NCBI RefSeq assembly: GCF_017357385.1
Contig: NZ_CP071632.1
Location: 687,501 to 751,500 of the forward strand
DNA length: 64,000 nt
Direction of reading: 5' to 3'
DNA from: Rhizobium sp. NZLR1
GTDB lineage: Bacteria; Pseudomonadota; Alphaproteobacteria; Rhizobiales; Rhizobiaceae
This document shows, in pieces, positions 22,644 through 56,175 of this stretch. The position numbers were made by a program, and so were the translations under genes. A model generated the notes under the pieces. It had not been told where the DNA came from. It saw nothing but the letters and a program-made list of their open reading frames with translations, and made no database searches. Positions within the stretch are counted from its first letter, which is position 1, and each line of letters starts with the position of its first letter.

Positions 22644-23075
22644 TGCTCTGTCCTTGTCGACGTCATGTCTTGGTTATCGACCGGCGTATATCACGGAGCT
22701 TGCGTGTGCCTTGTAGCAGCCGTGCAACTCCGCAGCAGTATTTGCTGTGAACGGCCTTGAATTGCTTCAAAAGCCGGTGCTGCCAAAGGCTTATTAACCT
22801 TCAAGCAAGGAATTAACCATAAACATTGGTTTACACGTCGGAATGGGAAGATTCACTCGTTCCCACCAGGCATGACGCCGTCCCGCCGTACCGGGTTGAT
22901 CCGGTATCCATCTCTTCAGACAGCTCCGAAACATAGCTGATCAAGGGGCTTCGATCCGCCGGTTGTAACCGGTTGGTGAGGACCGTCTCCAGACCTGCGT
23001 TTCGACGGATGCTGCAAAAGTTTTTGGCCGGGCTTTCGCTCGGAATGTGGTCGGGGACAGGCGTTGAGGCAGGAT
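22644..23075. other. promoter region of the che operon
   Basis: About 430 bases without a supported gene. It contains an AT-rich stretch with two TTAACC words (about 22793 and 22811) and the GCATGA / TCCGG motif shared with the flagellin genes, listed separately. The transcription start of the che operon most likely lies here. Confidence 0.5.
22870..22911 (+). promoter_or_regulatory. bipartite motif of che/flagellin promoters, icpA copy
   Basis: GCATGACGCC at 22870 and TCCGGTAT at 22900, with 24 bases between the GCATGA and TCCGG blocks. The same two blocks precede flaA, flaB, flaC and flaD. This copy is about 175 bases before the icpA start rather than about 45, so a long leader would be expected. 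Confidence 0.5.
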
Positions 23076-24704
23076 ATGCCATCAGATCAGGCTCGTGGAG
23101 CGCAGGCAGGCAGCTTGCGCGACCGCCTGCGTTTTGTCGGTCTCGATGCCGACCAGTGCGAGCTGGTGCGCCGCAATCGACCGGCCCTCGAAGCGCATTT
23201 GAAGGCAGGTCTCAGAGATCTCTTCCACAGGTTCCAGTCATTCCCCGACGCCGCGCGTAATTTCGAGAGCGAGCGCCAAGTCGAGCGCCTGCATGATCTG
23301 CAGTCCTCGCACTGGGATGTGCTGACCGATGCGCGGTTCGACAGTCTCTATGCCGAGCGCGTCAAGGTTCTCTCCGATACCGAAAGCAAGATCGGCCTCG
23401 ATCCGCGCTGGCACGTGGCTGGCCATGGCGTCGTGCTGGAGCATGTTGTTTCCGGTCTCGCCGAGCAGATCGCCGGCCGATCGTTGCTGCCGTCCGCCAA
23501 GCGTCGCACCCGCGAAATCTCCGATCTGATGACAGCGATCATCCGCATCGTCATGGTCGATGTGGAAATCGCCGTCTCGCTCCGCTTCAACGCGCAGCGC
23601 GCCGCTGAACAGCGCGCGCTTGCCGATCAGCGCGCCGATAACGAGGCCGAGATCGTCAGGATCTTCGGCGATGTCATCGAAGGCCTGTCGGCACGCGACT
23701 TGACGCGGCGCGCGCCCGTCGATGGAGCCCATGCCGCGATCGCCGCCGCGCTGAACGGCGCATTGGATGGCCTCCAGGCCGAGTTCACCGCCATCACCGA
23801 GCGCACGCTCAAGGCCGAAGCGGCGACAGGCTCGCTTGCCGGCCTGTCCAGGCAGTTCGCCGGCACGGCTTCGGACCAGGCCGACCGGCTGCAGCTTTCT
23901 GCCGCTGCCCTTGCCGGTATCGCCGGCAGTGTCCGCGACGGTGCTGCCGACAGCCGCACTGCCGAACAGGCCGCCGCCTCGACGCGCGCCGCCGTCGAAC
24001 AAAGCGGCGAGGTCGTCGGCCGCGCGATCAGCGCCATGGCCGATATCGAGCAGTCAGCCGAAAAGATCGGCCAGATCATCGGCGCGATCGACGAGATCGC
24101 CTTTCAGACCAATCTTCTGGCGCTGAACGCCGGCATCGAGGCCGCTCGCGCCGGCGATTCCGGCCGCGGTTTTGCCGTCGTCGCCCAGGAGGTCCGCGCG
24201 CTGGCCCAGCGCTCGGCCGAAGCCGCCCGCGAGATCAAGACGCTGGTGACGACGACCAAGGCCCAGGTCGACGCAGGCGTGCAGATGGTCGGCCGCACAC
24301 AGGATTCGATCGGCAGCATCGTGCGTCAGGTCACCGACATCAATGCCGCCATCGCGGGCATCGCCACCCGAACCGGCGAACATGCCGCAAGCCTCGACAT
24401 CGTGACTTCAGACATCAAGGGCCTGGGTAGCGAGGTGGCGGACAGCGCCGGCCTTGCGGAGCGCTCCGCCGAAGGCGCCGACCACCTTCATACCGTCATT
24501 CTCGAACTCGGTCAGACGATTCGCGAATTCCGCATCGCCCGGGAAAACGCCAATGCCGGACGCCCGGCGCCGGTTCGTGTGACGTCGCCGCGCGCCATCG
24601 AAGCCGCCGCCCGTCCGGCTGTGGCCGAAGACGAATACGAAAATGATGATTTTAGCCTTCCGCGGCCGTTCGCAAGCGTCGGAGGTGGGCGGAATGTTTA
24701 CTAA
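23076..24704 (+). CDS. icpA: cytoplasmic globin-coupled chemoreceptor IcpA
   Basis: 542 residues from the ATG at 23076; a TTG four codons upstream is an alternative. No membrane helix is present. Residues 10-175 form a protoglobin-like sensor domain ([32 protein letters not shown]). The C-terminal half is a methyl-accepting signalling domain with the hairpin tip [21 protein letters not shown]. First gene of the che operon, as icpA/mcpE is in R. leguminosarum and S. meliloti, where IcpA acts in energy taxis. In the globin part the position where HemAT has the haem-ligating His appears to be Glu103 here. No C-terminal CheR-tethering pentapeptide is seen. Confidence 0.88.
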
Positions 24705-24767
24705 CCTATCGGATGATTGCCTCAGCTCGTCTTCTCGGGCCGGGGACAAGGGGACAAGGAAAAGCTG

Positions 24768-25064
24768 ATGGCAGCAAAGAAGAGTGGCAAGACGCTGGAT
24801 TTGACAGCGGTGCTCGACCTCAACGAGGCTTCCGCCTTGCGCGACAAACTTCTCTCCCTCAGGGGTAGCGGCCTGTCAATAGACGCTTCCGGCGTCGAAC
24901 GGATCGGTGCTCTTTGTGCCCAGGTTCTGATGTCCGCCGAGAAGACCTGGGTGCAGGACAAGCAGCCATTCACCTTCTCCAAGGTGTCCGACGCATTTCA
25001 GAAAACCATGCAGCTGGCGGGCGTCAATATTGATCACCTGCTTGCCAAGGAGATTCGGCAATGA
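24768..25064 (+). CDS. cheS: STAS-domain chemotaxis protein CheS
   Basis: 98 residues from the ATG at 24768 (AAGGAAAAG upstream). It has a STAS-like fold: LDLTAVLDLNEASALRDKLL, then LSIDASGVERIGALCAQVL. The equivalent S. meliloti protein, CheS (orf2), has about the same length and binds CheA to speed loss of phosphate from CheY1, the phosphate sink. Its stop overlaps the cheY1 start by four bases (ATGA), so the two are translationally coupled. Confidence 0.85.
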   Translation: MAAKKSGKTLDLTAVLDLNEASALRDKLLSLRGSGLSIDASGVERIGALCAQVLMSAEKTWVQDKQPFTFSKVSDAFQKTMQLAGVNIDHLLAKEIRQ

Positions 25065-25426
25065 AGAAAAAAGTTCTTACCGTGGATGATTCCCGCACCA
25101 TCCGAAACATGCTTCTCGTGACGCTGAACAATGCCGGCTTCGAGACGATTCAGGCGGAAGACGGCATCGAGGGTCTCGAGATTCTCGAAGAGTCCAATCC
25201 TGACGTCATCGTGACCGACATCAACATGCCGCGCCTCGATGGTTTCGGCTTCATCGAAGGTGTCCGCCGCAACGAAAAATATCGGGCGATCCCGATCCTG
25301 GTCCTGACCACCGAAAGCGACGCGGAAAAGAAGAACCGCGCCCGCCAGGCCGGTGCCACGGGCTGGATCGTCAAGCCTTTCGATCCGGCCAAACTGATCG
25401 ATGCCATTGAGCGTGTAACCGCTTAA
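25061..25426 (+). CDS. cheY1: chemotaxis response regulator CheY1
   Basis: 121 residues, one receiver domain: acidic pair in TVDDSRTI, phospho-acceptor Asp53 in VTDINMPRLDG, Thr in LVLTTESD and Lys in IVKPFDP. In S. meliloti CheY1 does not drive the motor but drains phosphate from CheY2 through CheA, with help from CheS. Position between cheS and cheA supports the same role here. Confidence 0.92.
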   Translation: MKKKVLTVDDSRTIRNMLLVTLNNAGFETIQAEDGIEGLEILEESNPDVIVTDINMPRLDGFGFIEGVRRNEKYRAIPILVLTTESDAEKKNRARQAGATGWIVKPFDPAKLIDAIERVTA

Positions 25427-25443
25427 ACCCAGGATTTGCACCG

Positions 25444-27753
25444 ATGGATATGAACGAAATCAAAGAGATCTTTTTCCAGGAGTGCGAGGAACAGCTCGCC
25501 GAGCTGGAATCCGGTCTTCTGAAATTGAATGATGGCGATCGCGATCCGGAAACCGTCAATGCGGTGTTTCGTGCCGTGCATTCGATCAAGGGTGGCGCCG
25601 GCGCCTTCGGCCTTGATGATCTGGTCGCCTTCGCCCATGTTTTCGAGACCACTCTCGATTGCGTTCGATCCAACAAGCTCGAGCCGACCCAGGACGTCCT
25701 GAAGGTGATGCTGAAGTCGGCCGACGTGCTCGCCGACCTGACGAATGCTGCGCGTGACGGCGGCAGCGTCGATGAAAGCCGCAGCCGAAGCCTGGTCAAG
25801 GAGCTCGAGGCGCTGGCCAACGGTGAGTTGCCATCTCCCTCGGCATTGGCCGAGGCGCCGGCCCCGAAGGGCGCAGCAAAGCCCGTGGCCAAGGCCGTTC
25901 CGGCCGCTGCGGCGCCGACAGTCAAGCCCACCGACGACAGCGGCTTCCAGCCGGTCCCCTTTTCCTTCGACGATTTTGGCGGCGAGGGCGGTGCGGACTC
26001 CGGCATGCCGGCCTATGAAGTCATCTTCAAGCCGCGCTACGAACTCTATTCCAAGGGCAATGACGCAACGTTGCTGCTGCGCGACCTCTCGCGCCTCGGC
26101 GAAATGACCATCTATTGCAATACCGACGACCTGCCGGGCCTGGAGGAACTCGATCCGGAAGGCGCTTATTTCTTCTGGAACGTCACGATCAAGACGGACA
26201 AGGGCGAGGACGCCATTCGTACCGTCTTCGAATTTGCTGAGTGGGATTGCGAACTGACGGTGAAGCCGGTCGAGGAAGCAAGGGCCGACGCGACCAGCAA
26301 CGACGAACTGCCGATGGTGCCGGTTCCCTTCGATCTGTCGATCCTGGATGAGAGCGGCGCAACGGAAGAAGTTTCCGCCGCCAACGCAAGGGCCGAGGAG
26401 ACGGCCGCCGCCGTTGCCGCCGCCGAGACCGCCTCCAACGTCACGCAGATGGCTTCAGCCGCCGCCCGTGTCGAGAAGAAGGAATCGGCCGCCGCCGCAG
26501 CAGCCGCTGCAAGTGCTGCCGCCCAGAACAACGCCGCCGCCGGCGCCGGCCAGACGATCCGCGTCGATCTCGACCGTGTCGACCGCCTCATCAACCTCGT
26601 CGGCGAACTGGTCATCAACCAGGCGATGCTGTCGCAGAGCGTCATCGAGAACGACACGACCGGTACCTCCTCGATCAACATGGGTCTCGAGGAGTTGCAG
26701 CAGCTCACCCGCGAGATCCAGGACTCGGTCATGGCGATTCGCGCCCAGCCGGTGAAGCCGGTGTTCCAGCGCATGTCGCGTATCGTCCGCGAAATCGCCG
26801 ACATGACCGGCAAATCGATCCGCCTCATCACCGAAGGTGAAAATACCGAAGTCGACAAGACGGTCATCGACAAGCTGGCCGAGCCGCTGACCCACATGAT
26901 CCGCAATGCCGTCGACCACGGCATCGAAACGCCTGAAAAGCGTGCAGCCGCCGGCAAGAACACCGAAGGCACGGTCCGCCTGACCGCCAAGCATCGTTCA
27001 GGACGCATCCTGATCGAGCTTGCCGATGACGGCGCCGGCATCAACCGCGAGAAGGTCCGCCAGAAGGCGATCGACAACGACCTCATCCCGGCCGATTCCA
27101 ACCTGTCGGACGAAGAAATCGACAACCTGATCTTCCTGCCGGGCTTCTCGACGGCCGACAAGATCTCGGACATCTCCGGCCGTGGCGTCGGCATGGACGT
27201 CGTCAAGCGTTCGATCCAGGCGCTCGGCGGCCGTATCAACATCACCTCCAAGCCGGGCCACGGCTCGGTCTTCACCATGAGCCTGCCGCTGACGCTCGCC
27301 GTCCTCGACGGCATGGTGGTCACCGTCGCCGGCCAGACCTTGGTGGTGCCGCTGACTGCGATCGTCGAAACCCTGCAGCCGGAAGCGGCCGCGATCCACT
27401 CCTTCGGTGCAAACCACCGGCTGATCTCGATCCGCAACAGCTTCTGCCCACTGGTCGATGTCGGTCGCATCCTGAACTTCCGCGCCACCCAGGCCAACCC
27501 GGTCGAGGGCGTGGCGCTTCTGGTGGAATCCGAAGGCGGCGGCCAGCGCGCCCTGATGGTCGACGCCATCCAGGGTCAGCGCCAGGTGGTCATCAAGAGC
27601 CTGGAAGCGAACTATACCCATGTGCCGGGCATTGCCGCCGCGACCATTCTCGGTGACGGGCGCGTCGCTCTCATCCTCGATGTCGACGCGGTCGTCGGCG
27701 CCTCGCGCGGCCAGTCGCTCAAAGCGGAAATGTCGTTAGCAGCGGTAGGGTAA
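25444..27753 (+). CDS. cheA: chemotaxis histidine kinase CheA
   Basis: 769 residues. P1 phosphotransfer domain at the N-terminus with His46 in [15 protein letters not shown]; a linker rich in Ala and Pro; a P2-like domain at about 190-285 ([17 protein letters not shown]); an Ala-rich linker at 315-365; P3 dimerisation helices ([16 protein letters not shown]); the HATPase domain ([16 protein letters not shown]-box, [16 protein letters not shown]); and a CheW-like P5 domain to the end. It takes receptor signals through CheW and phosphorylates CheY1, CheY2 and CheB. Length and motifs are complete. Confidence 0.97.
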
Positions 27754-27757
27754 GGCA

Positions 27758-28225
27758 ATGTCGTACGCCGTAAAAAATCTGAACGAGGGGGATCGCGAGC
27801 TGATCGCGTTCCGCATCGGGGATCAGGAATTTTGCGTGAACATCATGTCGGTTCGTGAGATCCGGGGCTGGACCCCGGCGACCGCGATGCCGCACTCGCC
27901 TGCCTATATGCTCGGTGTCATCAACCTGCGCGGCGCGGTGCTGCCGATCATCGACCTTGCTGCCCGGCTTGGCATGAAGCCGGCCGATCCGACTGCCCGT
28001 CATGTCATCATCGTCGCCCAGGTCCGGCGCAAGGTCGTCGGCCTGCTGGTCGATGCCGTCTCCGATATCCTGACGGTGACCGACGAGACCGTCCAGCCGA
28101 CGCCCGAGATCTCCTCCGAGCTCGAGCGTCAATTTGCCCGCGGCATTCTTGCCATCGACAAGCGCATGATCTGCCTGATCGAACTCGAATCCCTCTTTCC
28201 CGAGACCGAAAGCGAAGCCGCATGA
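27758..28225 (+). CDS. cheW: chemotaxis coupling protein CheW
   Basis: 155 residues, CheW fold throughout: [20 protein letters not shown] near the N-terminus, then [20 protein letters not shown]. It joins receptors to CheA. It starts four bases after cheA and overlaps cheR by four bases (ATGA). Only one cheW is present in this operon. Confidence 0.95.
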
Positions 28226-29130
28226 ACGCAATGGGCGCAAAAGATCAGAGGCAGGGATCCGACGAGGTGCTGGCGAGCGGTGAATATCCGCTGACACGCC
28301 GCGACCTCACGGAGATTGCCGCGATGATCTATTCGGATGCCGGCATCTTCCTCAACGAGACGAAGGCGTCGCTCGTCTATTCGCGCCTGTCGAAACATAT
28401 CCGTAATCTCGGTCTGTCCGGCTTCCGGGAATATTGCGACCTCGTCGCTTCGCCGGCGGGAGCTGCGCCGCGCCGCGAGATGCTCTCGCATCTGACGACC
28501 AATTTTACCCGCTTCTTCCGCGAAAACCATCATTTCGACCACCTGCGCGACCATGTCCTGCCGGAACTTCTGCAAAGGGCGAGATCGGGCGGCAGGGTGC
28601 GCATCTGGTCGGCCGCTTCCTCCGACGGGCAGGAACCCTATTCGATCGCGCTCACGGTGCTCTCGCTGATGCCGAATGTCGCCGATTACGACTTCAAGAT
28701 CCTGGCAACCGACATCGACCCGAAGATCCTGGCGATCGCCCGGGCCGGCGCCTATGACGAAAGCGCGCTCGAAACCGTTTCGCCCGCCATGCGCAAGCAA
28801 TGGTTCAGCGAAGTCGAGATCCAGGGCCGCAGGAAGTTCCAGGTCGACGACCGGGTCAAGCGGCTGATCACCTACAACGAGCTGAACCTGATGGCGCAAT
28901 GGCCGTTCAAGGGCAAGTTCGACGTCATCTTCTGCCGCAACGTCGTCATCTATTTCGACGAGCCGACGCAGATGAAGATCTGGCAGCGTTTCGCCGGCCT
29001 GCTGCCGGAGGGCGGGCATCTCTATATCGGCCATTCCGAGCGTGTGTCGGGCGAGGCAAAACACGTCTTCGACAATATCGGCATCACGACCTATCGCTAT
29101 ACGGCCAAAGGTCTCGGGAGGAAGGCATGA
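28222..29130 (+). CDS. cheR: chemoreceptor methyltransferase CheR
   Basis: 302 residues. An N-terminal helical domain (residues 25-95) precedes the SAM-dependent methyltransferase domain ([20 protein letters not shown] binding loop; [30 protein letters not shown]). It methylates glutamates of chemoreceptors. The start overlaps the cheW stop and its own stop overlaps the cheB start (ATGA), so the three are coupled. Confidence 0.95.
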
Positions 29131-30170
29131 GCGCGCCGGCAAGGGTTCTCGTTGTTGACGACTCCCCGACGATGCGGGGTCTGATCACCGCCGTCTTGAG
29201 TTCGGACCCCGAGGTCAACGTCATCGGCCAGGCCGGCGACGCGCTGGAAGCGCGCGAGGCGATCAAGCGGCTGAACCCCGACGTGGTGACGCTCGACATC
29301 GAGATGCCGAACATGAACGGTCTCGATTTCCTCGAAAAGATCATGACGCTGCGTCCGATGCCTGTCATCATGGTCTCGACAATGACCCACCGCGGCGCCG
29401 AGGCGACGCTTGCGGCACTTGAGATCGGTGCGTTCGACTGCGTCGGCAAGCCGGGGCCGGGCGAACTCCGGCCCTTCGGCGACCTCGCCGAGAAGGTCAA
29501 GGCTGCCGCGCGCACGCAGCGCCAGTTCTCCCATCCGGTTGCCCCCGCAGCACCCCCGCCCTCCGTCGCCGATTTCCGCGTCGGCCGCAAGATCGTCGCG
29601 ATCGGCTCGTCGACCGGCGGCGTCGAGGCGCTGATCGCCGTGCTGCAGAAGTTTCCGGCCAATTGCCCGCCGACGGTCATCACCCAGCATATGCCGCCGA
29701 CCTTTACCAAGAGCTTCGCCGAACGCCTGAACCGCCTCTGTGCGCCGGTGGTGCAGGAAGCAACCGACGGTGCCCGGCTCGAAATCGGCAAGATCTATCT
29801 GGCGCCCGGCGGCGAGCGCCATCTCCAGGTCAGCAGTGCCTCGGCGCCGTGCTGCCGTCTCGTTGACCGCGCGCCGGTCAACGGTCACCGGCCATCGGTC
29901 GACGTGCTGTTCGATTCGGTTGCGGAGTTGGCGGGCCGCAACGCCGTCGGCGTGATTTTGACCGGAATGGGCCGCGATGGTGCCGCCGGATTGTTGAAAA
30001 TGCGTCACGCCGGCGCCAGAACACTTGGCCAGAACGAAAAAACCTGTGTCGTTTACGGAATGCCAAGGGTTGCCCATGAACTTGGCGCCGTTGAGCAGCA
30101 GTTGCCCCTGTCTGCCATCGGGGAAGAAATATTGAAAATGACAGCCGCCCGAAAGGAAGGGACCGAATAA
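29127..30170 (+). CDS. cheB: chemotaxis methylesterase / deamidase CheB
   Basis: 347 residues from the ATG at 29127; the open frame extends far upstream inside cheR but that part is not CheB. The N-terminal receiver ([13 protein letters not shown], Asp in [12 protein letters not shown]) is joined by a Pro/Ala linker to the CheB methylesterase domain. The catalytic triad residues are visible: Ser in [11 protein letters not shown], His in [10 protein letters not shown] and Asp in [11 protein letters not shown]. It removes receptor methyl groups when phosphorylated by CheA. Confidence 0.96.
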
Positions 30171-30171
30171 A

Positions 30172-30561
30172 ATGTCGATCGCGGAGAAAATCAAAGTTCT
30201 GATCGTCGACGATCAGGTAACGAGCCGGTTGCTGCTCAGTGACGCGCTGACCCAGCTCGGTTTCAAGCAGATCACGTCCGCAGGCGACGGCGAGCAGGGC
30301 ATGAAAATCATGGCCGAGCAGCCGCACCACCTGGTGATCTCGGACTTCAACATGCCGAAGATGGATGGCATCGGCTTCCTTCAGGCCGTGCGCACCAATC
30401 CGAACACCAAGAAGGCAGCCTTCATCATCCTCACCGCCCAGGGCGACCGAGCACTGGTGCAGAAGGCAGCCCAGCTCGGGGCCAACAACGTGCTCGCCAA
30501 GCCGTTCACGATCGAGAAGATGAAAGCGGCCATCGAAGCTGTGTTTGGAGCCCTGAAATGA
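30172..30561 (+). CDS. cheY2: chemotaxis response regulator CheY2
   Basis: 129 residues, one receiver domain: [12 protein letters not shown], phospho-acceptor Asp58 in [12 protein letters not shown], Thr in IILTAQGD and Lys in LAKPFTIEK. In S. meliloti CheY2-P is the regulator that slows the unidirectional motor. It starts one base after cheB and overlaps cheD by four bases. Confidence 0.92.
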
Positions 30562-31112
30562 TCACTGAGGGGGCAGCCCGCCGCGTGCACATCATTCAGG
30601 GCGAGTACAAGGTTCTGAACGATCCGAATGCGGTCCTCTCGACCATTCTCGGTTCCTGCGTGGCTGCGTGCCTCCGAGACCCTATCGCCGGCATCGGCGG
30701 CATGAACCACTTCTTGCTGCCCGGTTCGGCGACGTCGCCGACCTCAGGCGGCGATGCCACCCGTTACGGCGTGCATCTGATGGAACTGCTGATCAACGGT
30801 CTCCTGAAACAGGGCGCCCGGCGCGACAGGCTGGAGGCCAAGATCTTCGGCGGCGCCAAGACGATCTCGACATTCTCCAATGTCGGTGAGCAGAACGCGG
30901 CCTTCGCCATGCAGTTCCTGAAGGATGAAGGCATTCCGGTGGTCGGTTCCTCCACAGGCGGAGACCACGGACGCAAGCTTGAATTTTGGCCCGTCTCCGG
31001 TCGTGCCCGGCAATACCCCCTGACCGGCGCCGAAACGCAGAGAACCGTCGCTCTCGAGCAGCGCCCTGCCGCTCCGCCGAAGCCCGTCGAAACCAGTATC
31101 GAATTTTTTTGA
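30558..31112 (+). CDS. cheD: chemoreceptor glutamine deamidase CheD
   Basis: 184 residues. The CheD active site is clear: Cys34 in [13 protein letters not shown] and His51 in [12 protein letters not shown], followed by [18 protein letters not shown]. CheD converts specific receptor glutamines to glutamate. Its start overlaps the cheY2 stop. Confidence 0.95.
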
Positions 31113-31128
31113 TGTCGAGGATTTTCAT

Positions 31129-31518: not shown

Positions 31519-31566
31519 GGCGCATCGCTTCAAGCCGGATTCATGCGGCGCTCCAAGTCTTGATTT

Positions 31567-31610
31567 ATGCATGTCGTTTCCCAAAACCGCTGCGAAGTTT
31601 TGGGGCGCAT
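31567..31610. repeat. rhizobial palindromic intergenic repeat, partial
   Basis: ATGCATGTCG at 31567, then CCCAAAACC and its near complement GTTTTGGGG separated by an eight-base loop. It shares its ATGC(A/G)TGTCG arm and central layout with the elements at 35441 and 37164. It lies between cheT and fliF and may end or process the che transcript. Confidence 0.55.
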
Positions 31611-48231: not shown

Positions 48232-48944
48232 ATATGCGTCTCCCGGCCGCGATTGCCGCCCTCGCACTCCTTGCGGGTTGCCAGTCTCCGACGGCAGTCA
48301 GCGAGATCGGCCGTGCGCCCGCCATGAGCCCGATCGGCAGCGGCCTTGCCTACGGCCAGACGCCGCAGATGGCGCTTTATCCGAAGCAGCCGCGCGCTGT
48401 GGCGCAGGGTTATTCGCTGTGGAGCGATTCACAGGCGGCGCTCTTCAAGGATGCACGCGCGCTCAACGTCGGCGACATCCTGACCGTCGACATTCAGATC
48501 AACGACAAGGGTTCTTTCGACAACGAGACCAACCGCAGCCGCAAGAATTCGAGCGGCATGAACTGGGACGTCAACGCCCAGATCTTCGGCTGGACGCCTG
48601 AGTCCAAGACCGACCTGACCTATGGCTCCGACACCAGCACCGACGGCAAGGGCAAGATCGAGCGCACCGACAAGCTGACGTTGCTGGTCGCCGCCGTCGT
48701 CACCGGCATTCTCGAAAACGGCAACCTCGTCATATCGGGCTCGCAGGAAGTCCGATTGAACCAGGAACTGCGTATCCTGAACGTCGCCGGTATCGTTCGT
48801 CCGCAGGACGTCAATGCCGAAAACCAGATCTCCTACGACAAGATCGCCGAAGCCCGCATCTCCTACGGTGGCCGCGGCCGCCTGATGGAAGTGCAGCAGC
48901 CTCCGCGCGGCCAGCAGGCCGTCGATCTTTTCTCGCCGCTTTGA
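48228..48944 (+). CDS. flgH: flagellar L-ring protein FlgH
   Basis: 238 residues, a lipoprotein: the lipobox LLAGC ends at Cys18. The FlgH core is seen in ALNVGDILTVDIQINDKGS and VVTGILENGNLVISGSQEV. It forms the outer-membrane L ring. Follows motE by a four-base overlap; fliL comes 12 bases later. Confidence 0.95.
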   Translation: MNMRLPAAIAALALLAGCQSPTAVSEIGRAPAMSPIGSGLAYGQTPQMALYPKQPRAVAQGYSLWSDSQAALFKDARALNVGDILTVDIQINDKGSFDNETNRSRKNSSGMNWDVNAQIFGWTPESKTDLTYGSDTSTDGKGKIERTDKLTLLVAAVVTGILENGNLVISGSQEVRLNQELRILNVAGIVRPQDVNAENQISYDKIAEARISYGGRGRLMEVQQPPRGQQAVDLFSPL

Positions 48945-48956
48945 GGCTGAACGACG

Positions 48957-49463
48957 ATGGCAGAGCCAGACGCAAGCGCAGATCAATCAAAGAAGAAATC
49001 CGGCACGCTGATGACGATCATCGGCGTCGCCGTCCTGACGCTGCTCGGCGCCGGTGGCGGCTGGGCGGTCGGCACGATCGTCGCGCCCAACATCAAGGGC
49101 GCCAAGGAGGCCGAGCAGGCCAAGGACGCCGAAGCGAAGAAAAAGGGTGAGGAAGGCCTGGCCCACATCTCCACCGAGGCCAACAACGTCGTCCAGCTCG
49201 AGCCGATCACGTCGAATCTCGCTTACCCCTCCGAAAACTGGGTCCGACTTGAGGTCGCGCTGCTCTTCAACGGGCCGCCGGATGTCAAGGTTTCCGAGGA
49301 TATTCATCAGGATATCCTCGCATATATCAGGACCGTTTCCCTGCAGCAGATCGAGGGGCCGCGGGGCTTTCAATATCTCAAGGATGACATACAGGAACGT
49401 GTTGACCTTCGCTCGCAAGGGCGCGTATCGAAGGTCATGTTCAGGACATTTGTCATCGAATGA
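48957..49463 (+). CDS. fliL: flagellar basal body protein FliL
   Basis: 168 residues. A short cytoplasmic N-terminus (residues 1-19) leads into one membrane helix (LMTIIGVAVLTLLGAGGGWA), then a periplasmic stomatin-like domain. The conserved YPSENWVRLEVAL core and the C-terminal KVMFRTFVIE are present. FliL helps the stators at high load. The stop overlaps fliP by four bases. Confidence 0.9.
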   Translation: MAEPDASADQSKKKSGTLMTIIGVAVLTLLGAGGGWAVGTIVAPNIKGAKEAEQAKDAEAKKKGEEGLAHISTEANNVVQLEPITSNLAYPSENWVRLEVALLFNGPPDVKVSEDIHQDILAYIRTVSLQQIEGPRGFQYLKDDIQERVDLRSQGRVSKVMFRTFVIE

Positions 49464-50197
49464 TTCGTCTCATAGTTTTCCTTGCCGCCATGATAGCGGT
49501 ACCGGAACTGGCGGTGGCACAGCAGCTGCCGACTAACCTGTTGAACGTGCCGGTCGATGGCTCCGTCGCCGCCTGGATCATCCGCACCTTCGGCCTGCTG
49601 ACCATTCTTTCGGTCGCGCCGGGCATCCTGATCATGGTGACGAGCTTCCCGCGCTTCATCATCGCCTTCTCGATCCTGCGCTCAGGCATGGGCCTCTCCT
49701 CCACGCCCTCCAACATGATCCTTCTGTCGCTGTCGCTGTTCATGACCTTCTACGTCATGTCGCCGACCTTCGATCAGGCCTGGCAGAACGGCGTGCAGCC
49801 GCTGCTTGCCAATCAGATCAACGAAACCGAGGCGGTCCAGCGGATCGCCGAACCGTTCCGCACCTTCATGTCGGCCAATACCCGCGACAAGGATCTGGCG
49901 CTCTTCGTCGATCTGGCGCGTGAACGCGGACAAAATATCCAGACGACCGATCCGATCGACTACCGTGTGCTGATCCCGGCCTTCATGATTTCCGAGATTC
50001 GCCGCGGCTTCGAGATCGGCTTCCTCGTCGTCCTGCCGTTCCTCGTCATCGACCTGATCGTCGCTACCATCACCATGGCGATGGGCATGATGATGCTGCC
50101 GCCGACCTCGATCTCGCTGCCGTTCAAAATTCTCTTCTTCGTGCTGATCGACGGCTGGAACCTGCTTGTCGGCAGCCTGGTGCGCTCATTCAACTGA
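49460..50197 (+). CDS. fliP: flagellar export protein FliP
   Basis: 245 residues. N-terminal signal peptide (residues 1-20, ends AVAQQLP), then four membrane helices with the FliP signatures VTSFPRFIIAFSILRSGMG and LPFLVIDLIVATITMAMGM. Part of the export gate. No fliO gene is seen next to it. It is the last gene before a bidirectional terminator. Confidence 0.96.
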   Translation: MIRLIVFLAAMIAVPELAVAQQLPTNLLNVPVDGSVAAWIIRTFGLLTILSVAPGILIMVTSFPRFIIAFSILRSGMGLSSTPSNMILLSLSLFMTFYVMSPTFDQAWQNGVQPLLANQINETEAVQRIAEPFRTFMSANTRDKDLALFVDLARERGQNIQTTDPIDYRVLIPAFMISEIRRGFEIGFLVVLPFLVIDLIVATITMAMGMMMLPPTSISLPFKILFFVLIDGWNLLVGSLVRSFN

Positions 50198-50230
50198 CAG
50201 GCTGCGGCCTCTTCCTTTTCCAAACGTGAA

Positions 50231-50262
50231 AACCCGCCGGATTGCCCCGGCGGGTTCTTTCG
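50231..50262. terminator. bidirectional terminator between fliP and the transferase gene
   Basis: AACCCGCCGG (50231) pairs with CCGGCGGGTT (50247) across a six-base loop. A T-rich tail follows on the plus strand (CTTTC) and a TTTT run on the minus strand. It serves the convergent fliP and O-GlcNAc-transferase-like genes. Confidence 0.8.
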
Positions 50263-50276
50263 TGGCGTTAAAAGCC

Positions 50277-52193
50277 TCACTCCGCGGCGAACGGCGCGGT
50301 GCGCGGCGGCAGCGCCGCGATGTCCATGTGGTCGGGTGCGAGACCCTGCTTGGCGCGCGCGGCTATGATTTCATAGGCCTGCTCCAGATGGTCGCAGAAC
50401 CGTTCGGCATCGAAGAGCGGCGCAATATAGCGCTTCTCCTTGAGATGTGCCTTGTATTCGGCGATCCGCCCGGGATTCTCGGCCAGTTCCACGGCCATAT
50501 CCTCGTAGTCCTGCAGGTCGCTTGCGACGAGGTCGGGTAGGTCGATGGCCCGCAGCAGGCTCTCGCTGACGCGTGAGGCGAAGTTGGTGCCTTTGACGGT
50601 CAGAACCGGCAGGCCGCCCCAGAGCTGCTCCGAGGTGGTCGTGTGGCCGTTGACGGGGAAGGTGTCGATGCCGAGGTCGGCCGCCTGCTGACGGTCGATG
50701 TGCTGTTCGTAGGGAGCGCGAGGGCAGAAGATGATCCGCTTGGGCGAAATGGCTGCCGCCTGGAACTGCTTCAAGAGATTTGCCTGGTTGCGCGGCGAAT
50801 TCGCCATCAGCCAGAGCACGCTGTTCGGCGCGCGCTTGAGAATGCGGCACCAGCTGTCGATTACCTCAGGCGTAATCTTGCGGTTGCCGTTGAAGGAGGC
50901 GAAGATGAAGGCATCTTCCGGCAGGCCGAGCTGCTCACGGGTGACGGCGCGCGGCTTCGGACGATGCATCGGATCGTTCGGCTGGTAGCTTTCCGGCAGT
51001 CGGCAGAATTTTTCGTGATAGAAAGGCTTGGCCACCTCGGGCAACACCGAATGGTCGCCGATGACATAGTCCAGGTCGATATTGACGGTGCTGCCGGGAA
51101 AACCGAGCCAGCCGACATGTACCGGCGCCAGCGGCAGGTTGAAAGCAGTCGCGCGGCTGCCTGATGTATGACCCTTCAGGTCGACCATGATGTCGATATT
51201 ATGCGCGCGCACCGTTTCCAGCATCGCCCGGTCGGAGAAGCCGTGAACGGTGACGATCCTGCCCCAACGGCTGCGATCGGTGTCGTTGTGCTTTAGGTAT
51301 TCCGGGCCTGTATGGCAGAAGAGCGTCACCTCGAACCGATCCTTGTCGTGCAGTTCGAGGATGCGTTGCAGCAGCTTCATCGTCGCGTGCCGGTCCCAGA
51401 AGTCCGACGACATGTAGCCGATGCGGATCTTGTCCGACCAGATGTGCGGCTGGTTGCGGCGGAAGGTCACCCGTTCGTGGTTGAGAGGTGTGGTGCCGAT
51501 CGTCGCATAGCGGTTGAAGTCCTCGTTGCCGCACCAGTGCAGGTGATAGAACGGGTTGTCTTTGCGCAGGATCTCGATATCGCCTTTCGCAAGGGCCGCG
51601 TCGATCACCGCCTGATGCTTGGCTGCCTCTTCGAATTCGTTGAATTCGCGGGCGAAAACAAGGTGGAGAAAGCGGAAGGCGTGATTGCCTGGAAAACGCT
51701 TGAAGAGGTTGCGCGCCAGCTTCTGGTTGGTTGCATCGTTGAGATCGTCGCTGAGCAGCAGGGCCGCCAGACGCATGTGGTCGGGATTCATGCTTTCCGA
51801 CAGCACCGTCTTGAACGGACGGATGATATCGCGCTGCTGGCGCTTCAGATAGATCGCGGTGATGATGAAAGCGAGTTCGGCATCTTCCTGCGCTTTGGCA
51901 AGGTTGCGCATGGCGATCAGCAGCGCTTCGTCCTCGTTGCCAGTCTCGTAATGCAGCTTGGCGGCCTGTTTCTGGTATTCGTAGGCGTTCGGTCCTTCGC
52001 AGTTGCCGGCCAGGCCATAGGCTTTCGCGGCGTCGGCCTTGAATCCGAGCTGCACGAGGTTCTTGGCCAGCAGCGCATAGGTCTTGGCGTCCTGCTGGAT
52101 ATCCATCAACTGGTTGAGCGTCGCCAGGGACTGTGTGTAGCGGCCCATCTGGTAATCCTTGGATGCCGCAGAGAACGAAACTTTGCTGTTCAA
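50277..52193 (-). CDS. SPINDLY/O-GlcNAc-transferase-like glycosyltransferase (GT41) with TPR-like repeats
   Basis: 638 residues. Residues 1-225 are TPR-like helical repeats (MGRYTQSLATLNQLMDIQQD, KNLVQLGFKADAAKAYGLAG). The rest is a GT41 catalytic domain: KIRIGYMSSDFWDRHATMKL with the family His, VHVGWLGFPGSTVNIDLDYV, FASFNGNRKITPEVIDSWCR and GHTTTSEQLWGGLPVLTVKG. The enzyme family moves a sugar, usually GlcNAc, from a nucleotide donor to Ser/Thr of proteins. No signal peptide; it acts in the cytoplasm. It lies between fliP and flaA, facing away from the flagellin genes, so flagellin is the likely acceptor (inference); flagellins of R. leguminosarum are known to be glycosylated. Confidence 0.85.
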   Translation of the reverse strand: MNSKVSFSAASKDYQMGRYTQSLATLNQLMDIQQDAKTYALLAKNLVQLGFKADAAKAYGLAGNCEGPNAYEYQKQAAKLHYETGNEDEALLIAMRNLAKAQEDAELAFIITAIYLKRQQRDIIRPFKTVLSESMNPDHMRLAALLLSDDLNDATNQKLARNLFKRFPGNHAFRFLHLVFAREFNEFEEAAKHQAVIDAALAKGDIEILRKDNPFYHLHWCGNEDFNRYATIGTTPLNHERVTFRRNQPHIWSDKIRIGYMSSDFWDRHATMKLLQRILELHDKDRFEVTLFCHTGPEYLKHNDTDRSRWGRIVTVHGFSDRAMLETVRAHNIDIMVDLKGHTSGSRATAFNLPLAPVHVGWLGFPGSTVNIDLDYVIGDHSVLPEVAKPFYHEKFCRLPESYQPNDPMHRPKPRAVTREQLGLPEDAFIFASFNGNRKITPEVIDSWCRILKRAPNSVLWLMANSPRNQANLLKQFQAAAISPKRIIFCPRAPYEQHIDRQQAADLGIDTFPVNGHTTTSEQLWGGLPVLTVKGTNFASRVSESLLRAIDLPDLVASDLQDYEDMAVELAENPGRIAEYKAHLKEKRYIAPLFDAERFCDHLEQAYEIIAARAKQGLAPDHMDIAALPPRTAPFAAE

Positions 52194-52645
52194 AACCCAA
52201 CTCCGTGAAGGAAATGTTCTGGCAATGGCGGTCGATCGCCCGGCGCATGCACGGTTTGTCCTCCCCGAAAACGGGTGGATCGGTCCGATGGTGCTATCCC
52301 GGCGCCTGCCACATTGGCATTCGAAGCTTGCTTGAAACCGGTGAGTTGACGAACCTCTGTTTTCCCGGCGAAATGGCCGCTTTTCCGCAGGGAAAACGCT
52401 TACTTTCCAAGAGAATTAGAATGTAGAGGAATATATTCAGCAAGCATTAACTATGCCCTGCGAGGAGCCGGCTTGAGGCCAGTATTTTTAAGAAGTTGGC
52501 AAGCATTGGCTGCGAGATTGCCCTGGACATGACGGGTTTGGGCCAAACAAAAAAGGCGCCGAGTAGCATGAAGCTGGTCCGTCATCGCCGGTACTATAGT
52601 CCGGTATGTCCTCCTTTTTGTATCTAGTTTCCAGGGGACAGATTT
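52194..52645. other. divergent promoter region of the transferase gene and flaA
   Basis: About 450 bases without a supported gene. It holds the flaA copy of the GCATGA / TCCGG motif (listed separately) and presumably the promoter of the transferase gene on the opposite strand. No terminator or large repeat is seen. Confidence 0.5.
52566..52611 (+). promoter_or_regulatory. bipartite motif of che/flagellin promoters, flaA copy
   Basis: GCATGAAGCTGGTCC at 52566 and TCCGGTATGTCC at 52600, 28 bases between the GCATGA and TCCGG blocks. The second block is 46 bases before the flaA start. See the matching sites before flaB, flaC, flaD and icpA. Confidence 0.6.
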
Positions 52646-53551
52646 ATGACAAGCATTAACACGAACACTTCCGCACAGGCCGCTCTCCAGACGCTGCGTA
52701 GCGTCAACCAGGGCCTCAACCAGACGCAGAACCACGTTTCGTCGGGCTATCGCGTTGAAAAGGCTTCTGACAACGCTGCTTACTGGTCGATCGCAACGAC
52801 CATGCGGTCGGACAACAAGGCACTCTCCGCTGTTTCCGACGCCCTCGGCGTTGGCGCTGCGAAGGTCGACACCGCTTACACCGCCATGGACAGCGCCATC
52901 GACGTCGTCGGCGACATCAAGGCCAAGCTGGTTGCCGCCACTGAAAACGGCGTCGACAAGGCCAAGGTTCAGGAAGAAATCGGTCAGCTGCAGCAGCAGC
53001 TCCTCAGCATCGCCCAGTCGGCTTCCTTCAATGGCGAAAACTGGGTTGCCGGCGCTGACGGCACGAAGAGCGTCGTATCCTCCTTCGTCCGCGACGGCTC
53101 CAACGCCGTTTCGGTAACCACGACCGACTACGTTCTCGACGACAGCAGCGCGGGCAACGTAATGTTCGGCATGAGCGGCGGTTCGGTCGAAACCTCCACC
53201 GGTATCCTCGGTACTTCGAATGGTGCGACCGGCTCGATCTACGCGATGGACATCACCAGCTTCACCGCCGGCCAGATCCAGTCGGCTCTGACGAACGTCG
53301 AATCGGCTCTGAAGTCGATGACCAGCGCCGGCGCTGCTCTCGGCTCGCTCTCCAAGCGCATCGACAATCAGGACACCTTCGTGTCCGCGCTCAGCGATTC
53401 GATCGACTCCGGTATCGGCCGTCTGGTCGATGCCAACATGGAAGAAGAATCCTCCAAGCTCAGCGCCTTGCAGACCCAGCAGCAGCTGGCGATCCAGTCG
53501 CTGTCGATCGCGAATTCCTCTTCGCAGAACATCCTGTCGCTGTTCCGCTAA
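52646..53551 (+). CDS. flaA: flagellin FlaA
   Basis: 301 residues with the conserved flagellin ends: N-terminal NVSSGYRVEKASDNAAYW-like segment and C-terminal LQTQQQLAIQSLSIANSSSQ ending LFR. The central part is short, as in other rhizobial flagellins of about 300 residues. FlaA is the main filament subunit in S. meliloti and R. leguminosarum. An AGGGGACAG ribosome site precedes the ATG. Its DNA is very similar to flaB over long stretches. No signal peptide; it is exported through the flagellar type III system. Confidence 0.95.
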   Translation: MTSINTNTSAQAALQTLRSVNQGLNQTQNHVSSGYRVEKASDNAAYWSIATTMRSDNKALSAVSDALGVGAAKVDTAYTAMDSAIDVVGDIKAKLVAATENGVDKAKVQEEIGQLQQQLLSIAQSASFNGENWVAGADGTKSVVSSFVRDGSNAVSVTTTDYVLDDSSAGNVMFGMSGGSVETSTGILGTSNGATGSIYAMDITSFTAGQIQSALTNVESALKSMTSAGAALGSLSKRIDNQDTFVSALSDSIDSGIGRLVDANMEEESSKLSALQTQQQLAIQSLSIANSSSQNILSLFR

Positions 53552-53576
53552 GACCGGTCGGCACAAGGTTTCCAAG

Positions 53577-53612
53577 TTTCGCGGCCGGGTCATCCCCGGC
53601 CGCGAAATGTTT
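53577..53612 (+). terminator. rho-independent terminator after flaA
   Basis: A 13-bp perfect stem, TTTCGCGGCCGGG (53577-53589) with CCCGGCCGCGAAA (53595-53607), a five-base loop and a following TGTTTT. It ends the flaA transcript. Confidence 0.85.
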
Positions 53613-53626
53613 TAACATAAGGTTAA
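53612..53626 (+). promoter_or_regulatory. CtrA-type box upstream of flaB
   Basis: TTAA at 53612, seven bases, TTAA at 53623: an exact match to the TTAA-N7-TTAA pattern of the cell-cycle regulator CtrA. It lies about 210 bases before the flaB start and just after the flaA terminator. Confidence 0.5.
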
Positions 53627-53754
53627 TGAAAACTCTTCTAAGTCTCAGATATTTTTAAGTAATTTCCAGTTTGGATTTAGCTTTCCTTAACCATCTTGGT
53701 GTTTTCTAGGCCCATCGAAACGGCGAGTTAACCTTAACAAAAAATGGTTAGCAG

Positions 53755-53799
53755 GCATGATGCTGATCGCTGTGGGCCGGCCGAAAATCCGGAATGTCC
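53755..53799 (+). promoter_or_regulatory. bipartite motif of che/flagellin promoters, flaB copy
   Basis: GCATGATGCTGATCG at 53755 and TCCGGAATGTCC at 53788, 27 bases between blocks; the second block is 47 bases before the flaB start. A TTAACCTTAAC word lies about 25 bases upstream. Confidence 0.6.
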
Positions 53800-53834
53800 C
53801 TTCTTAAAATCTGCCAACAAGGGGCAATTAAACT

Positions 53835-54743
53835 ATGACGAGCATCAACACCAATAACGCTGCAATGGCAGCCCTCCAGACTCTCCGTGGCATCAACCAG
53901 GGTCTCCAGACAACCCAGGCTCACGTTTCGTCCGGCTATCGCGTCGGCAAGGCTTCCGACAACGCTGCTTACTGGTCCATCGCAACGACCATGCGTTCGG
54001 ACAACAAAGCTCTCTCGGCTGTTTCCGACGCTCTCGGCCTCGGCGCCGCTAAGGTCGACACCGCTTATTCCGCCATGGACAGCGCCATCGACGTCGTCGG
54101 CGACATCAAGGCCAAACTGGTTGCCGCCACTGAAAACGGCGTCGACAAGGCCAAGGTCCAGGAAGAAATCAGCCAGCTGCAGCAGCAGCTGATGAGCGTC
54201 GCTCAGTCGGCTTCCTTCTCGGGTGAAAACTGGGTGGCCGGCGCTTCCGGCACCAAGAATGTCGTTGCCTCCTTCGTCCGTGACGGCTCCAACGCCGTGT
54301 CGGTCGTGATGACCGACTATGTGCTCGACGATAGCAGCGTGGGCAACGTTCTGTTCGGCATGAGCGGCGGGGCAGTCGAAACCTCCACGGGTATTCTCGG
54401 CACGTCGAATGGCGCGACCGGTTCTGTCTACGCGATGGACATCACCAACTTCACCCTCGGCGAGATCCAGTCGGCTCTGACGAACGTTGAATCGGCTCTG
54501 AAGTCCATGACCAGCGCCGGCGCTGCTCTCGGCTCGGTCTCCAAGCGCATCGAACTGCAGGAAAACTTCGTGTCCGCACTCAGCGACTCGATCGACTCCG
54601 GTGTCGGCCGCCTCGTCGACGCCGACATGGAAGAAGAATCCTCCAAGCTCAGCGCTCTGCAGACCCAGCAGCAGCTGGCCGTGCAATCGCTGTCGATCGC
54701 GAACTCCTCTTCGCAGACGATCCTCACGCTGTTCCGCGGCTAA
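53835..54743 (+). CDS. flaB: flagellin FlaB
   Basis: 302 residues, very close to FlaA. The N-terminal half (SGYRVGKASDNAAYWSIATT) and C-terminal half (LQTQQQLAVQSLSIANSSSQ) are almost the same; differences cluster in the central 120-200 region. It is a minor or co-assembled subunit of the complex filament. AAGGGGCAA precedes the ATG. Ends with its own terminator, so each flagellin gene is a separate unit. Confidence 0.93.
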   Translation: MTSINTNNAAMAALQTLRGINQGLQTTQAHVSSGYRVGKASDNAAYWSIATTMRSDNKALSAVSDALGLGAAKVDTAYSAMDSAIDVVGDIKAKLVAATENGVDKAKVQEEISQLQQQLMSVAQSASFSGENWVAGASGTKNVVASFVRDGSNAVSVVMTDYVLDDSSVGNVLFGMSGGAVETSTGILGTSNGATGSVYAMDITNFTLGEIQSALTNVESALKSMTSAGAALGSVSKRIELQENFVSALSDSIDSGVGRLVDADMEEESSKLSALQTQQQLAVQSLSIANSSSQTILTLFRG

Positions 54744-54795
54744 TAACCGCAGAAAACATCGGCCCGCCGGTCTCCGGCGAGCCCCCAGCAACGAG

Positions 54796-54823
54796 CCGCG
54801 CTTCTATGGAGCGCGGTTTTTTT
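54796..54823 (+). terminator. rho-independent terminator after flaB
   Basis: CCGCGCT (54796) and AGCGCGG (54810) form a stem with a seven-base loop, followed by seven T residues. Confidence 0.88.
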
Positions 54824-54831
54824 AATGTCCG

Positions 54832-54848
54832 TTAACGATCGATTAACC
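54832..54848 (+). promoter_or_regulatory. CtrA-type box upstream of flaC
   Basis: TTAA at 54832, seven bases (CGATCGA), TTAACC at 54843: an exact match to TTAA-N7-TTAACC. It lies about 145 bases before the flaC start. Confidence 0.55.
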
Positions 54849-54911
54849 ATAATGCTGTTTTCTCAGGTCAACGAGACGGTGGGTTAACCAAATCTAAGAA
54901 TCGGTTAACAG

Positions 54912-54954
54912 GCATGAGGCTGGTCCCCGTTCCCGGTAGCGTTCCGGAATGTCC
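54912..54954 (+). promoter_or_regulatory. bipartite motif of che/flagellin promoters, flaC copy
   Basis: GCATGAGGCTGGTCC at 54912 and TCCGGAATGTCC at 54943, 25 bases between blocks; the second block is 47 bases before the flaC start. GTTAAC words flank it upstream. Confidence 0.6.
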
Positions 54955-54989
54955 CTTTTTTCCATCTGCCGACAAGGGGCAATCATTTC

Positions 54990-55901
54990 ATGACCAGCAT
55001 TTTGACCAACGTCGCGGCCATGGCCGCGCTTCAGACACTCCGCGGAATCAATGACGGCCTTGAGGCTACGCAGAATCGCGTATCATCGGGCTACCGCGTC
55101 GAAAAGGCAGCCGACAACGCGGCTTACTGGTCGATCGCAACGACGATGCGTTCGGACAACAAGGCACTCTCCGCCGTCTCCGACGCCCTCGGCCTCGGCG
55201 CCGCCAAGGTCGACACCGCTTACTCTGCCATGGACAGCGCCATCGACATCATCAGCGAAATCAAGGCGAAGATCGTCGCCGCGACCGAAAAGGGCGTCGA
55301 CAAGACCAAGGTCCAGGAAGAAATCGGCCAGCTGCAACAGCAGCTCCTGAGCATCGCGCAGTCGGCTTCCTTCTCCGGTGAAAACTGGGTTGCTGGTGCT
55401 GACGGCACCAAGAGCGTCGTTTCTACTTTCGTGCGCGATGGCAGCGGCAATGTCTCAGTCAAGACGACCGATTACATCCTGGACACGAGCTCCATGGGCA
55501 ACGTTCTCTTCGGCATGACCTCGACTGGCACGATCGACACGAGCTCCGGCATTATCGGCACATCATACGGCACTATCGGCTCGATCTACTCGATGGACAT
55601 CAGCACCTTCGGTTCGCCTGAGATTTCCATGGCCCTGACCTCGATCGAGGCTGGCCTGGATGCCATGACCAAGGCTGCCTCGCAGCTCGGCTCTATTTCC
55701 ACGCGCATCGAACTGCAGGAAAACTTCGTTGGAGCACTCAGTGATTCGATTGACTCGGGTGTCGGCCGCCTCGTTGACGCCAATATGGAAGAGGAATCGA
55801 GCAAGCTGACGGCCTTGCAAACGCAGCAGCAACTGGCTATCCAGTCGCTGTCGATCGCCAACTCCAGCGCGCAGAACATCCTCACGCTGTTCCGCAGCTA
55901 A
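54990..55901 (+). CDS. flaC: flagellin FlaC
   Basis: 303 residues, of the same type as FlaA and FlaB but more diverged in the middle (residues 150-220, with STGTIDTSSGIIGTSYGTIG). N- and C-terminal assembly domains are intact (SGYRVEKAADNAAYWSIATT; ending ILTLFRS). Preceded by AAGGGGCAA, ended by its own terminator. Confidence 0.92.
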   Translation: MTSILTNVAAMAALQTLRGINDGLEATQNRVSSGYRVEKAADNAAYWSIATTMRSDNKALSAVSDALGLGAAKVDTAYSAMDSAIDIISEIKAKIVAATEKGVDKTKVQEEIGQLQQQLLSIAQSASFSGENWVAGADGTKSVVSTFVRDGSGNVSVKTTDYILDTSSMGNVLFGMTSTGTIDTSSGIIGTSYGTIGSIYSMDISTFGSPEISMALTSIEAGLDAMTKAASQLGSISTRIELQENFVGALSDSIDSGVGRLVDANMEEESSKLTALQTQQQLAIQSLSIANSSAQNILTLFRS

Positions 55902-55965
55902 GCCAGGCGCTGAAGCTGGACCGAATCTTGCGCCATCGTTCGGCAGCAAGCAGAAAGCCTCCCGG

Positions 55966-55993
55966 ACCGCGCCCGAAACGGCGCGGTTTTTTC
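55966..55993 (+). terminator. rho-independent terminator after flaC
   Basis: ACCGCGCC (55966) and GGCGCGGT (55980) form a stem around a six-base loop and are followed by a T-run. Confidence 0.88.
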
Positions 55994-56133
55994 TTTTATA
56001 TCAATAGCTTGCCTGCCGCCGTGATCGGCGCGGCGAGTTCAGCGCCGCGCTCTTGCCGAACAGGTTGATATCGAGTTAACCTCGCTTTGAGTTGATTTGC
56101 TTTTGCGACACGCCGGTAGAAACGCTGCCGGAG

Positions 56134-56175
56134 GCATGACGCCACTTTAGTCGCCGCCGGCAATCCGGCCTGCCC
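56134..56175 (+). promoter_or_regulatory. bipartite motif of che/flagellin promoters, flaD copy
   Basis: GCATGACGCC at 56134 and TCCGGCCTGCCC at 56164, 24 bases between blocks; the second block is 38 bases before the flaD start. A near CtrA box (TTAA-N7-TTGA) lies at 56076. Confidence 0.55.

Follow-up and report, generated by a model that had tools for sequence, protein, structure and literature searches.

In Caulobacter and Brucella, FlbT has been proposed to bind the 5′ untranslated region (UTR) of flagellin mRNA (PMC4347634). It is described as acting through this UTR, promoting mRNA decay in Caulobacter and activating in Brucella (PMC4347634, PMC8781033, PMC9812332). At the DNA level, CtrA binds flaA, flaB and flaC of S. 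meliloti (PMC4433202). Schluter et al. predicted CtrA motifs before flaA, flaC, flaD, mcpE and mcpY and listed the unassigned motif TTTGTTAACCAT, which lies within 40 nucleotides (nt) upstream of the start sites of 19 genes (PMC3616915). Here we analyze a 64,000-nt stretch of Rhizobium sp. NZLR1 (NZ_CP071632.1, positions 687,501 to 751,500; hereafter the window), in which the flagellin genes flaA, flaB, flaC and flaD and the che operon gene icpA are each preceded by two sequence blocks, GCATGA and, 24 to 28 bases later, TCCGG. The original prediction took this pair to be a class III promoter signal. Sequence comparison indicates that the blocks most likely form the center of an RNA fold with which these messages begin, and not a promoter.

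Proposed structure of the flagellin and che operon leaders

In the proposed fold, a helix P1 encloses a hairpin, P2, and a mini-hairpin, P2b, which together form a three-way junction, and a further hairpin, P3, follows. The GCATGA block is the tip of P2b (NGC-AUGAN-GCN, with the loop AUGAN) and the TCCGG block is the 3′ arm of P3. Most leaders carry a second inverted repeat upstream of GCATGA, which is P2, and the strand outside it pairs, as P1, with the stretch that separates GCATGA from the CCGG hairpin. The AUGAN loop and its adjacent bases are conserved across leaders, and the P3 loop varies in length from about 4 to 14 nt. RNAalifold proposed the same helices and P2b for 12 flaB-like leaders. 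A covariance model built from these 12, the flaB and flaC leaders of the window among them (R1), found flaA (E 6.5e-9), icpA (E 0.0011) and copies in other genera; flaD was not significant (E 0.36). The training set of a second model (R2) includes flaA, flaB, flaC and icpA of the window.

The pairing is maintained by compensatory change. Among 105 R1 matches at E ≤ 0.03, 94.0% of the cells pair in the model-fitted alignment, compared with 71.7% when shuffled. Double changes occur in 19 of the 21 pairs, and the covariation score is 0.552 against 0.169 for shuffled sequences and 0.03-0.06 for slid partners. The R2 set, which overlaps partly with the first, gave similar values: for 121 matches (114 distinct), 94.2% pairing, double changes in 19 of 21 pairs and a score of 0.605 against 0.186 when shuffled. 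Searching motif-bearing leaders for the best combination of P1, P2 and P3 with no covariance model, we found that 73 of 86 exceeded the 95th percentile and 64 the 99th percentile of 430 core-preserving shuffles; the search rules were set after the pattern had been seen and were used alike on the shuffles. All five leaders of the window passed the 95th percentile. When 42 flaD leaders were aligned with MAFFT, again without the model, the paired cells came to 245 of 294 in P2 and 153 of 210 in P1, with exchanges among G-C, A-T and G-T.

The paired sites also have a strand preference. G-U outnumbers A-C by 152 to 36 and by 138 to 46 in the fitted alignments, and G-T outnumbers A-C in the MAFFT-aligned flaD leaders by 48 to 11 overall (P2, 37 to 3; P1, 11 to 8). 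Because wobble pairs are preferred on the gene strand, the signal would reside in RNA and not in a DNA site. The covariation and wobble patterns make us confident that the element is a structured RNA. Plain inverted repeats bound by a dimer were considered and rejected, as the arm sequences change freely while pairing holds.

The block pair is present before all five genes at the positions first given for it, and the distances quoted from the second block to the flagellin start codons are correct; the icpA ATG (23076), unlike those of the flagellin genes, lies about 170 bases beyond the second block. A sixth match, absent from the earlier list, is at 55513, within the flaC coding sequence. With a gap of 20-32 the window thus holds 6 matches against 1.32 expected, a number reached by 0 of 100 shuffles. 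Genome-wide, GCATGA-N22-30-TCCGG occurs 81 times (39 + 42) in 6.86 Mb, against 11 matches of a reversed control pattern; because there are 81 matches, the bare pair is unspecific as a sequence pair and alone defines no regulon.

Table 1. Leader elements, helices and associated signals in the window (SD, Shine-Dalgarno sequence; positions count from the first base of the window)
Feature	Position	Strand	GCATGA start; gap to TCCGG	Details
Leader element, icpA (che operon)	22830..22912	+	22870; 24 bases	R2 43.0 bits, E 5.9e-10 (in R2 training set); genome-wide R2 E 2.5e-8
Helices, icpA	P1 22836-22841/22883-22888, P2 22844-22849/22860-22865, P2b 22869-22879, P3 22889-22906	+		one mismatch in P1
Leader element, flaA	52524..52612	+	52566; 28 bases	R2 57.0 bits, E 6.7e-14 (in R2 training set)
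Helices, flaA	P1 52529-52536/52578-52585, P2 arms within 52537-52544 and 52555-52563, P2b 52565-52575, P3 52587-52605	+
Leader element, flaB	53715..53800	+	53755; 27 bases	R2 73.3 bits, E 1.6e-18 (in R1 and R2 training sets)
Helices, flaB	P1 53721-53726/53767-53772, P2 53727-53733/53746-53752, P2b 53754-53764, P3 53777-53792	+
Leader element, flaC	54871..54955	+	54912; 25 bases	R2 71.8 bits, E 4.4e-18 (in R1 and R2 training sets)
Helices, flaC	P1 54875-54879/54927-54931, P2 54883-54889/54903-54909, P2b 54911-54921, P3 54933-54947	+
Leader element, flaD	56105..56176	+	56134; 24 bases	R2 match 56107-56176, 25.4 bits, E 5.1e-5; genome-wide E 0.0021
Helices, flaD	P1 56105-56109/56150-56154, P2 56113-56119/56125-56131, P2b 56133-56143, P3 56156-56169	+
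Candidate P4, flaA	52607..52640	+		UGUCCUC 52607-52613 opposite SD GGGGACA 52634-52640
Candidate P4, flaB	53795..53826	+		UGUCCCUU 53795-53802 opposite SD AAGGGGCA 53819-53826
Candidate P4, flaC	54950..54981	+		UGUCCCUU 54950-54957 opposite SD AAGGGGCA 54974-54981
TTAA-N7-TTAACC, CtrA-type box upstream of flaC element	54832..54848	+		from sequence; exact at flaC only
TTAACC box, icpA	22813			from sequence
TTAACC box, flaB	53687			from sequence
TTAACC box, flaD	56076			from sequence
TTAACT upstream of flaA element	52447			from sequence

Two observations concern the surroundings of the elements. Past P3, the icpA leader continues for about 170 nt (22907-23075) to the ATG of a Protoglobin-type methyl-accepting chemotaxis protein (MCP), and this stretch is predicted to be highly structured. 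A glycosyltransferase family 41 protein (PF13844) encoded at 50277-52193 on the minus strand adjoins flaA and is a possible flagellin glycosyltransferase.

Specificity and distribution of the element

Within its own genome the element is confined to the five leaders of the window. R2 found five sites at E ≤ 0.0021, before flaB, flaC, flaA, icpA and flaD, and the next best match had an E of 0.58. The original prediction had expected further sites before other mcp genes, and none of these appeared as a strong match in the R2 search of the genome. In 30 MCP loci, some of which stop short of the gene start, so that the genome search carries more weight, the only R2 match at E ≤ 0.01 was icpA itself (L056), followed by a match on the opposite strand at E 0.04 (L041). 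A further flagellin-like gene of the genome (C1:3026500, L378) has no element upstream by eye or in the R2 genome search. Of the class I/II genes before which the pair had been noted as absent, fliF was placed (31730); apart from the five elements, the best R2 matches in the window fall at 27927 (E 0.022) and 18452 (E 0.032), neither of them directly before it. The view that late (class III) genes for flagellin and chemotaxis have the blocks as a common signal is upheld, as is the argument that recent duplication does not explain them.

The element is widespread in related bacteria. A scan of named genomes for relatives of the flaB protein gave 76 Rhizobium-type loci, with the literal pair in 147 of 183 distinct flagellin upstream regions (1 of 197 open reading frames (ORFs), without a parsed start, was left out). 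Of the 36 regions without it, 35 keep GCATGA, most with an altered hairpin such as CCCGG-loop-CCGGG or CGGCC-loop-GGCCG, as judged by eye. One flagellin copy (L127) has lost the GCATGA core, and weaker versions of the element are found in three copies, L114 on plasmid pRL11 and L123 and L124 on other contigs. At icpA-like loci of eight other genera (plus-strand loci; L138, L143 and L146, on the minus strand, were left out), the core is kept together with ACCGG-loop-CCGGT, whose flanking pair is instead G-C in L145 and T-A in L148, and the P1, P2 and P3 combination exceeded the shuffle 95th percentile in 6 of these 8 upstream regions. In flagellin clusters of 40 Rhizobiaceae genomes, the core and a CGG block are present in 76 of 103 upstream regions; several of the other 27 are misplaced starts or cut ends, and 19 ORFs without a parsed start were dropped.

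In the family sample, 120 of 151 genomes have an R2 match at E ≤ 0.01. Presence follows that of flagellin: among 61 family genomes searched for both, flagellin and element occur together in 49 and are both absent in 10, leaving one genome with flagellin only (G034) and one, 76% complete, with the element only (G043). In the order sample of 199 genomes, 53 reach E ≤ 0.01 and 37 of these also E ≤ 1e-5, with matches in eleven families besides its own. In the class sample outside the order, weak matches (E 3e-6 to 1e-3) occur in 5 of 288 genomes, at loci without a flaA-D or icpA homologue; we treated these as chance.

We identified the gene behind 115 matches. These were not a random sample: they comprise top-ranked family and order loci and the listed order matches, with 6 of 121 dropped (5 duplicates and 1 cut off). 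The gene is a flagellin in 105 cases, a HAMP-domain (MCP-type) gene in 2 and an ORF without a Pfam match in 1 (L317, near a fliF-like ORF); it is unclear in 4, and 3 had insufficient sequence. In family f2, the element stands before a HAMP-domain, MCP-type gene at two loci (L342, L350). Four weak order matches are not followed by a flagellin (L354, L369, L371, L372). Judged from these comparisons, the element is real, specific and conserved across the order Hyphomicrobiales in the leaders of late flagellar genes.

Proposed regulatory role and association with FlbT

The positions of upstream boxes suggest where transcription begins. At icpA, flaB, flaC and flaD, P1 is preceded at a distance of 15-26 bases by TTAACC boxes, which at icpA, flaB and flaD are half-sites of the TTAA-N7-TTAA pattern that flaC matches exactly. 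Of 257 upstream regions, a set with many close orthologues, 164 have TTAAC[CTG], compared with 96 on the other strand, and 62 have TTAA-N7-TTAA; the commonest TTAAC[CTG] starts are 67 and 69 bases before GCATGA. These positions fit, and do not prove, a transcription start just upstream of P1. The promoter is more plausibly sought upstream of the element, around these CtrA-type boxes.

In flagellin leaders, the other end of the element is close to the Shine-Dalgarno sequence (SD). Many flagellin leaders have UGUCCC(U/UU) after P3 and an SD of AGGGACA or AAGGGGCA before the ATG, and this candidate pairing, P4, exceeds the 95th percentile of shuffles in 98 of the 164 distinct leaders compared, among which close orthologues are common. 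The minimum free energy (MFE) structures from RNAfold pair the SD through P4 in flaB and flaC, the SD bases of flaB being mostly paired; the flaA SD region pairs with another stretch. A few variants look compensatory, for instance UGUCCCA/UGGGACG and UAUGCC/GGUGUA.

The distribution of FlbT offers a possible partner. Among the order genomes, FlbT is encoded in 36 of the 37 with a strong element (E ≤ 1e-5) and in 102 of the 162 others (Fisher p 5e-6); the exception, G172, is 86% complete. In seven strong-element genomes with two FlbT genes, the copy that lies about 9-21 kb away from the element belongs to one type and its counterpart to the second. A tree of 40 chosen FlbTs fully separated 20 element-linked from 20 unlinked sequences, with a branch support of 100/99. 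The two deep groups differ in signature (INGAV versus IIGxxVITN) and in length (124 residues in 15 of 20, versus 121-122). Of 20 further FlbTs, picked because their length was unusual or their score low, 16 were of the other type, and the element type was found in G218, which has a weak element, and in G179, G242 and G082. Lateral-type and subpolar flagellar systems are known to be split likewise in Rhizobiales (PMC6406911). Given this known split, the co-occurrence with FlbT shows that the RNA goes with the lateral-type system. FlbT is its best, though unproven, partner and may be the ligand, at rather less than even odds.

Taking these observations together, we consider that the blocks, on balance, probably belong as conserved segments to a structured leader RNA at the 5′ end of class III messages, those of the flagellin genes and the che operon, which it regulates. 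The grounds, all comparative, are conservation, base-pair covariation, specificity for five genes in the genome, and co-distribution. We expect with fair assurance that the element acts on translation or stability, and a function in translational control is likely. A class III gene would be transcribed from an upstream promoter of the CtrA/Rem cascade. In many flagellin leaders UGUCCCU after P3 would then pair with the SD and hold the ribosome-binding site closed, and a regulator recognizing the junction, P2b and P3 region would set translation against degradation of the message. The likeliest recognizer would be the FlbT that belongs to the lateral-type flagellar system, together with FlaF. 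In this scheme, we infer each of the start upstream of P1, the closing of the SD and the binding of FlbT. More tentatively still, the element could be the cognate RNA of lateral-type FlbT/FlaF throughout Hyphomicrobiales, a single leader fold common to the major flagellin messages and the che operon, by which a checkpoint protein would release the translation of filament and chemotaxis genes together once the hook is ready.

Several observations weigh against this interpretation. The MFE structure of the whole leader forms P1 for flaA and not for flaB, flaC, flaD or icpA; weak prediction would account for this, and so would a genuine alternative state. The junction is impossible if the RNA begins inside or after P1. 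Pair counts from model-fitted alignments are biased in favor of the structure; in the tests made without a model, 13 of 86 leaders fall below the shuffle threshold and the flaD alignment includes unpaired P1 and P2 cells, part of them misalignment. P4 is mainly conserved in sequence rather than covarying, and none was seen in flaD, in several plasmid-type copies or in icpA, whose ATG is about 170 nt downstream. As to FlbT, the 102 genomes of the order that encode it in the absence of a strong element do not follow the association, and the split among FlbTs may just mirror that of whole flagellar systems. The element-negative genomes G179, G242 and G082 carry the element-type FlbT; their FlbT contig pieces hold no flagellin homologue, so that the flagellin leaders are outside view, and an unfiltered model search of the three gave a best E of 0.0026 (L440).

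Four other explanations were weighed against a regulatory leader RNA. In the first, the blocks would be a class III promoter or activator site in DNA, contacted by RNA polymerase or by an activator such as Rem, as befits blocks that are common to late genes of the genome in an element about 35-80 bases before flagellin start codons. A sigma-28-like or Rem-bound promoter would have two core boxes at fixed spacing; here the gap varies over 24-28 bases and the P3 loop over 4-14 nt, compensatory changes fall in arms of unconserved sequence, G-U is preferred over A-C, and the bare pair matches the genome 81 times. We therefore set the promoter reading aside as very unlikely. To our knowledge, rhizobia lack sigma-28. 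A small regulatory RNA could have the element as its target or source through conserved loop bases that could be exposed; with arms that vary freely and no partner identified, none having been looked for, this is the most doubtful of the alternatives.

The remaining two accept a structured leader and differ as to its ligand. A 5′ structure that merely stabilizes the mRNA, with no specific ligand, would be in keeping with P3 as a short G+C-rich hairpin and with the strong flaA, flaB, flaC and flaD promoter fusions in R. leguminosarum (PMC2936354). The AUGAN loop and its neighbors are conserved beyond the needs of a stabilizer, and the element is common to the flagellins and the che operon, which makes this account unlikely, if less strained than the promoter. 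A riboswitch for a small molecule reporting the motile or sessile state is suggested by a three-way junction with a conserved loop beside a possibly closed ribosome-binding site; its conserved core is short, it is seen in one order and with one flagellar system, and it has no Rfam riboswitch match, and we regard it as improbable.

It has long been asked how late flagellar genes are held back until the hook is ready. An order-wide RNA fold on flagellin and chemotaxis messages that goes with one FlbT clade is a concrete candidate for the poorly understood 5′ UTR target of FlbT and makes it a testable structure. It also corrects the promoter annotation: the conserved blocks would belong to the leader RNA, and the true promoters should be sought upstream. 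In addition, the covariance model detects lateral-type flagellin leaders at high specificity.

Comparison with known systems

The element is apparently uncatalogued, as judged from Rfam 15 and the open-access literature. No Rfam 15 family reached its gathering score in the window, and Rfam scans at lax thresholds, which covered the flagellin region together with nine icpA loci and sixteen from other families, gave unrelated weak matches only. The nearest catalogued RNA is flg-Rhizobiales (RF01736), likewise a candidate structured Rhizobiales RNA before flagellar genes. It was ruled out as the identity of our element, having a different sequence and sitting at flgF: it has TTGGGAGA-type (TTGGGAG) repeats and runs into flgF, whereas the Rhizobium element precedes flagellin genes and icpA. 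RF01736 has no match in the window or in the genome (gathering cut-off 55 bits) and exceeds its cut-off in 5 of the 199 order genomes, all of family f35 and at other loci. FlgF was identified at one of the RF01736 loci (L237) by NCBIfam and at the others by eye. Matches below the cut-off occur in several other families (L237-L265) at genes that look by eye like flgF, often with TTGGGGAG repeats, and the Rfam model may be too narrow.

The FlbT-controlled flagellin 5′ UTR of Caulobacter and Brucella is similar in its post-transcriptional control through the 5′ UTR, with FlbT and FlaF (PMC4347634, PMC8781033, PMC9812332). It differs in that the accessible portions of these accounts include no three-way-junction family, and in its range: in the Alphaproteobacteria sampled beyond the order, no match to the Rhizobium element was linked to a flagellin. 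Promoters of the CtrA type, as in the flagellin and mcp genes of S. meliloti, likewise have TTAACC boxes upstream of these genes. Those promoters are a DNA signal, and they sit upstream of the leader element described here.

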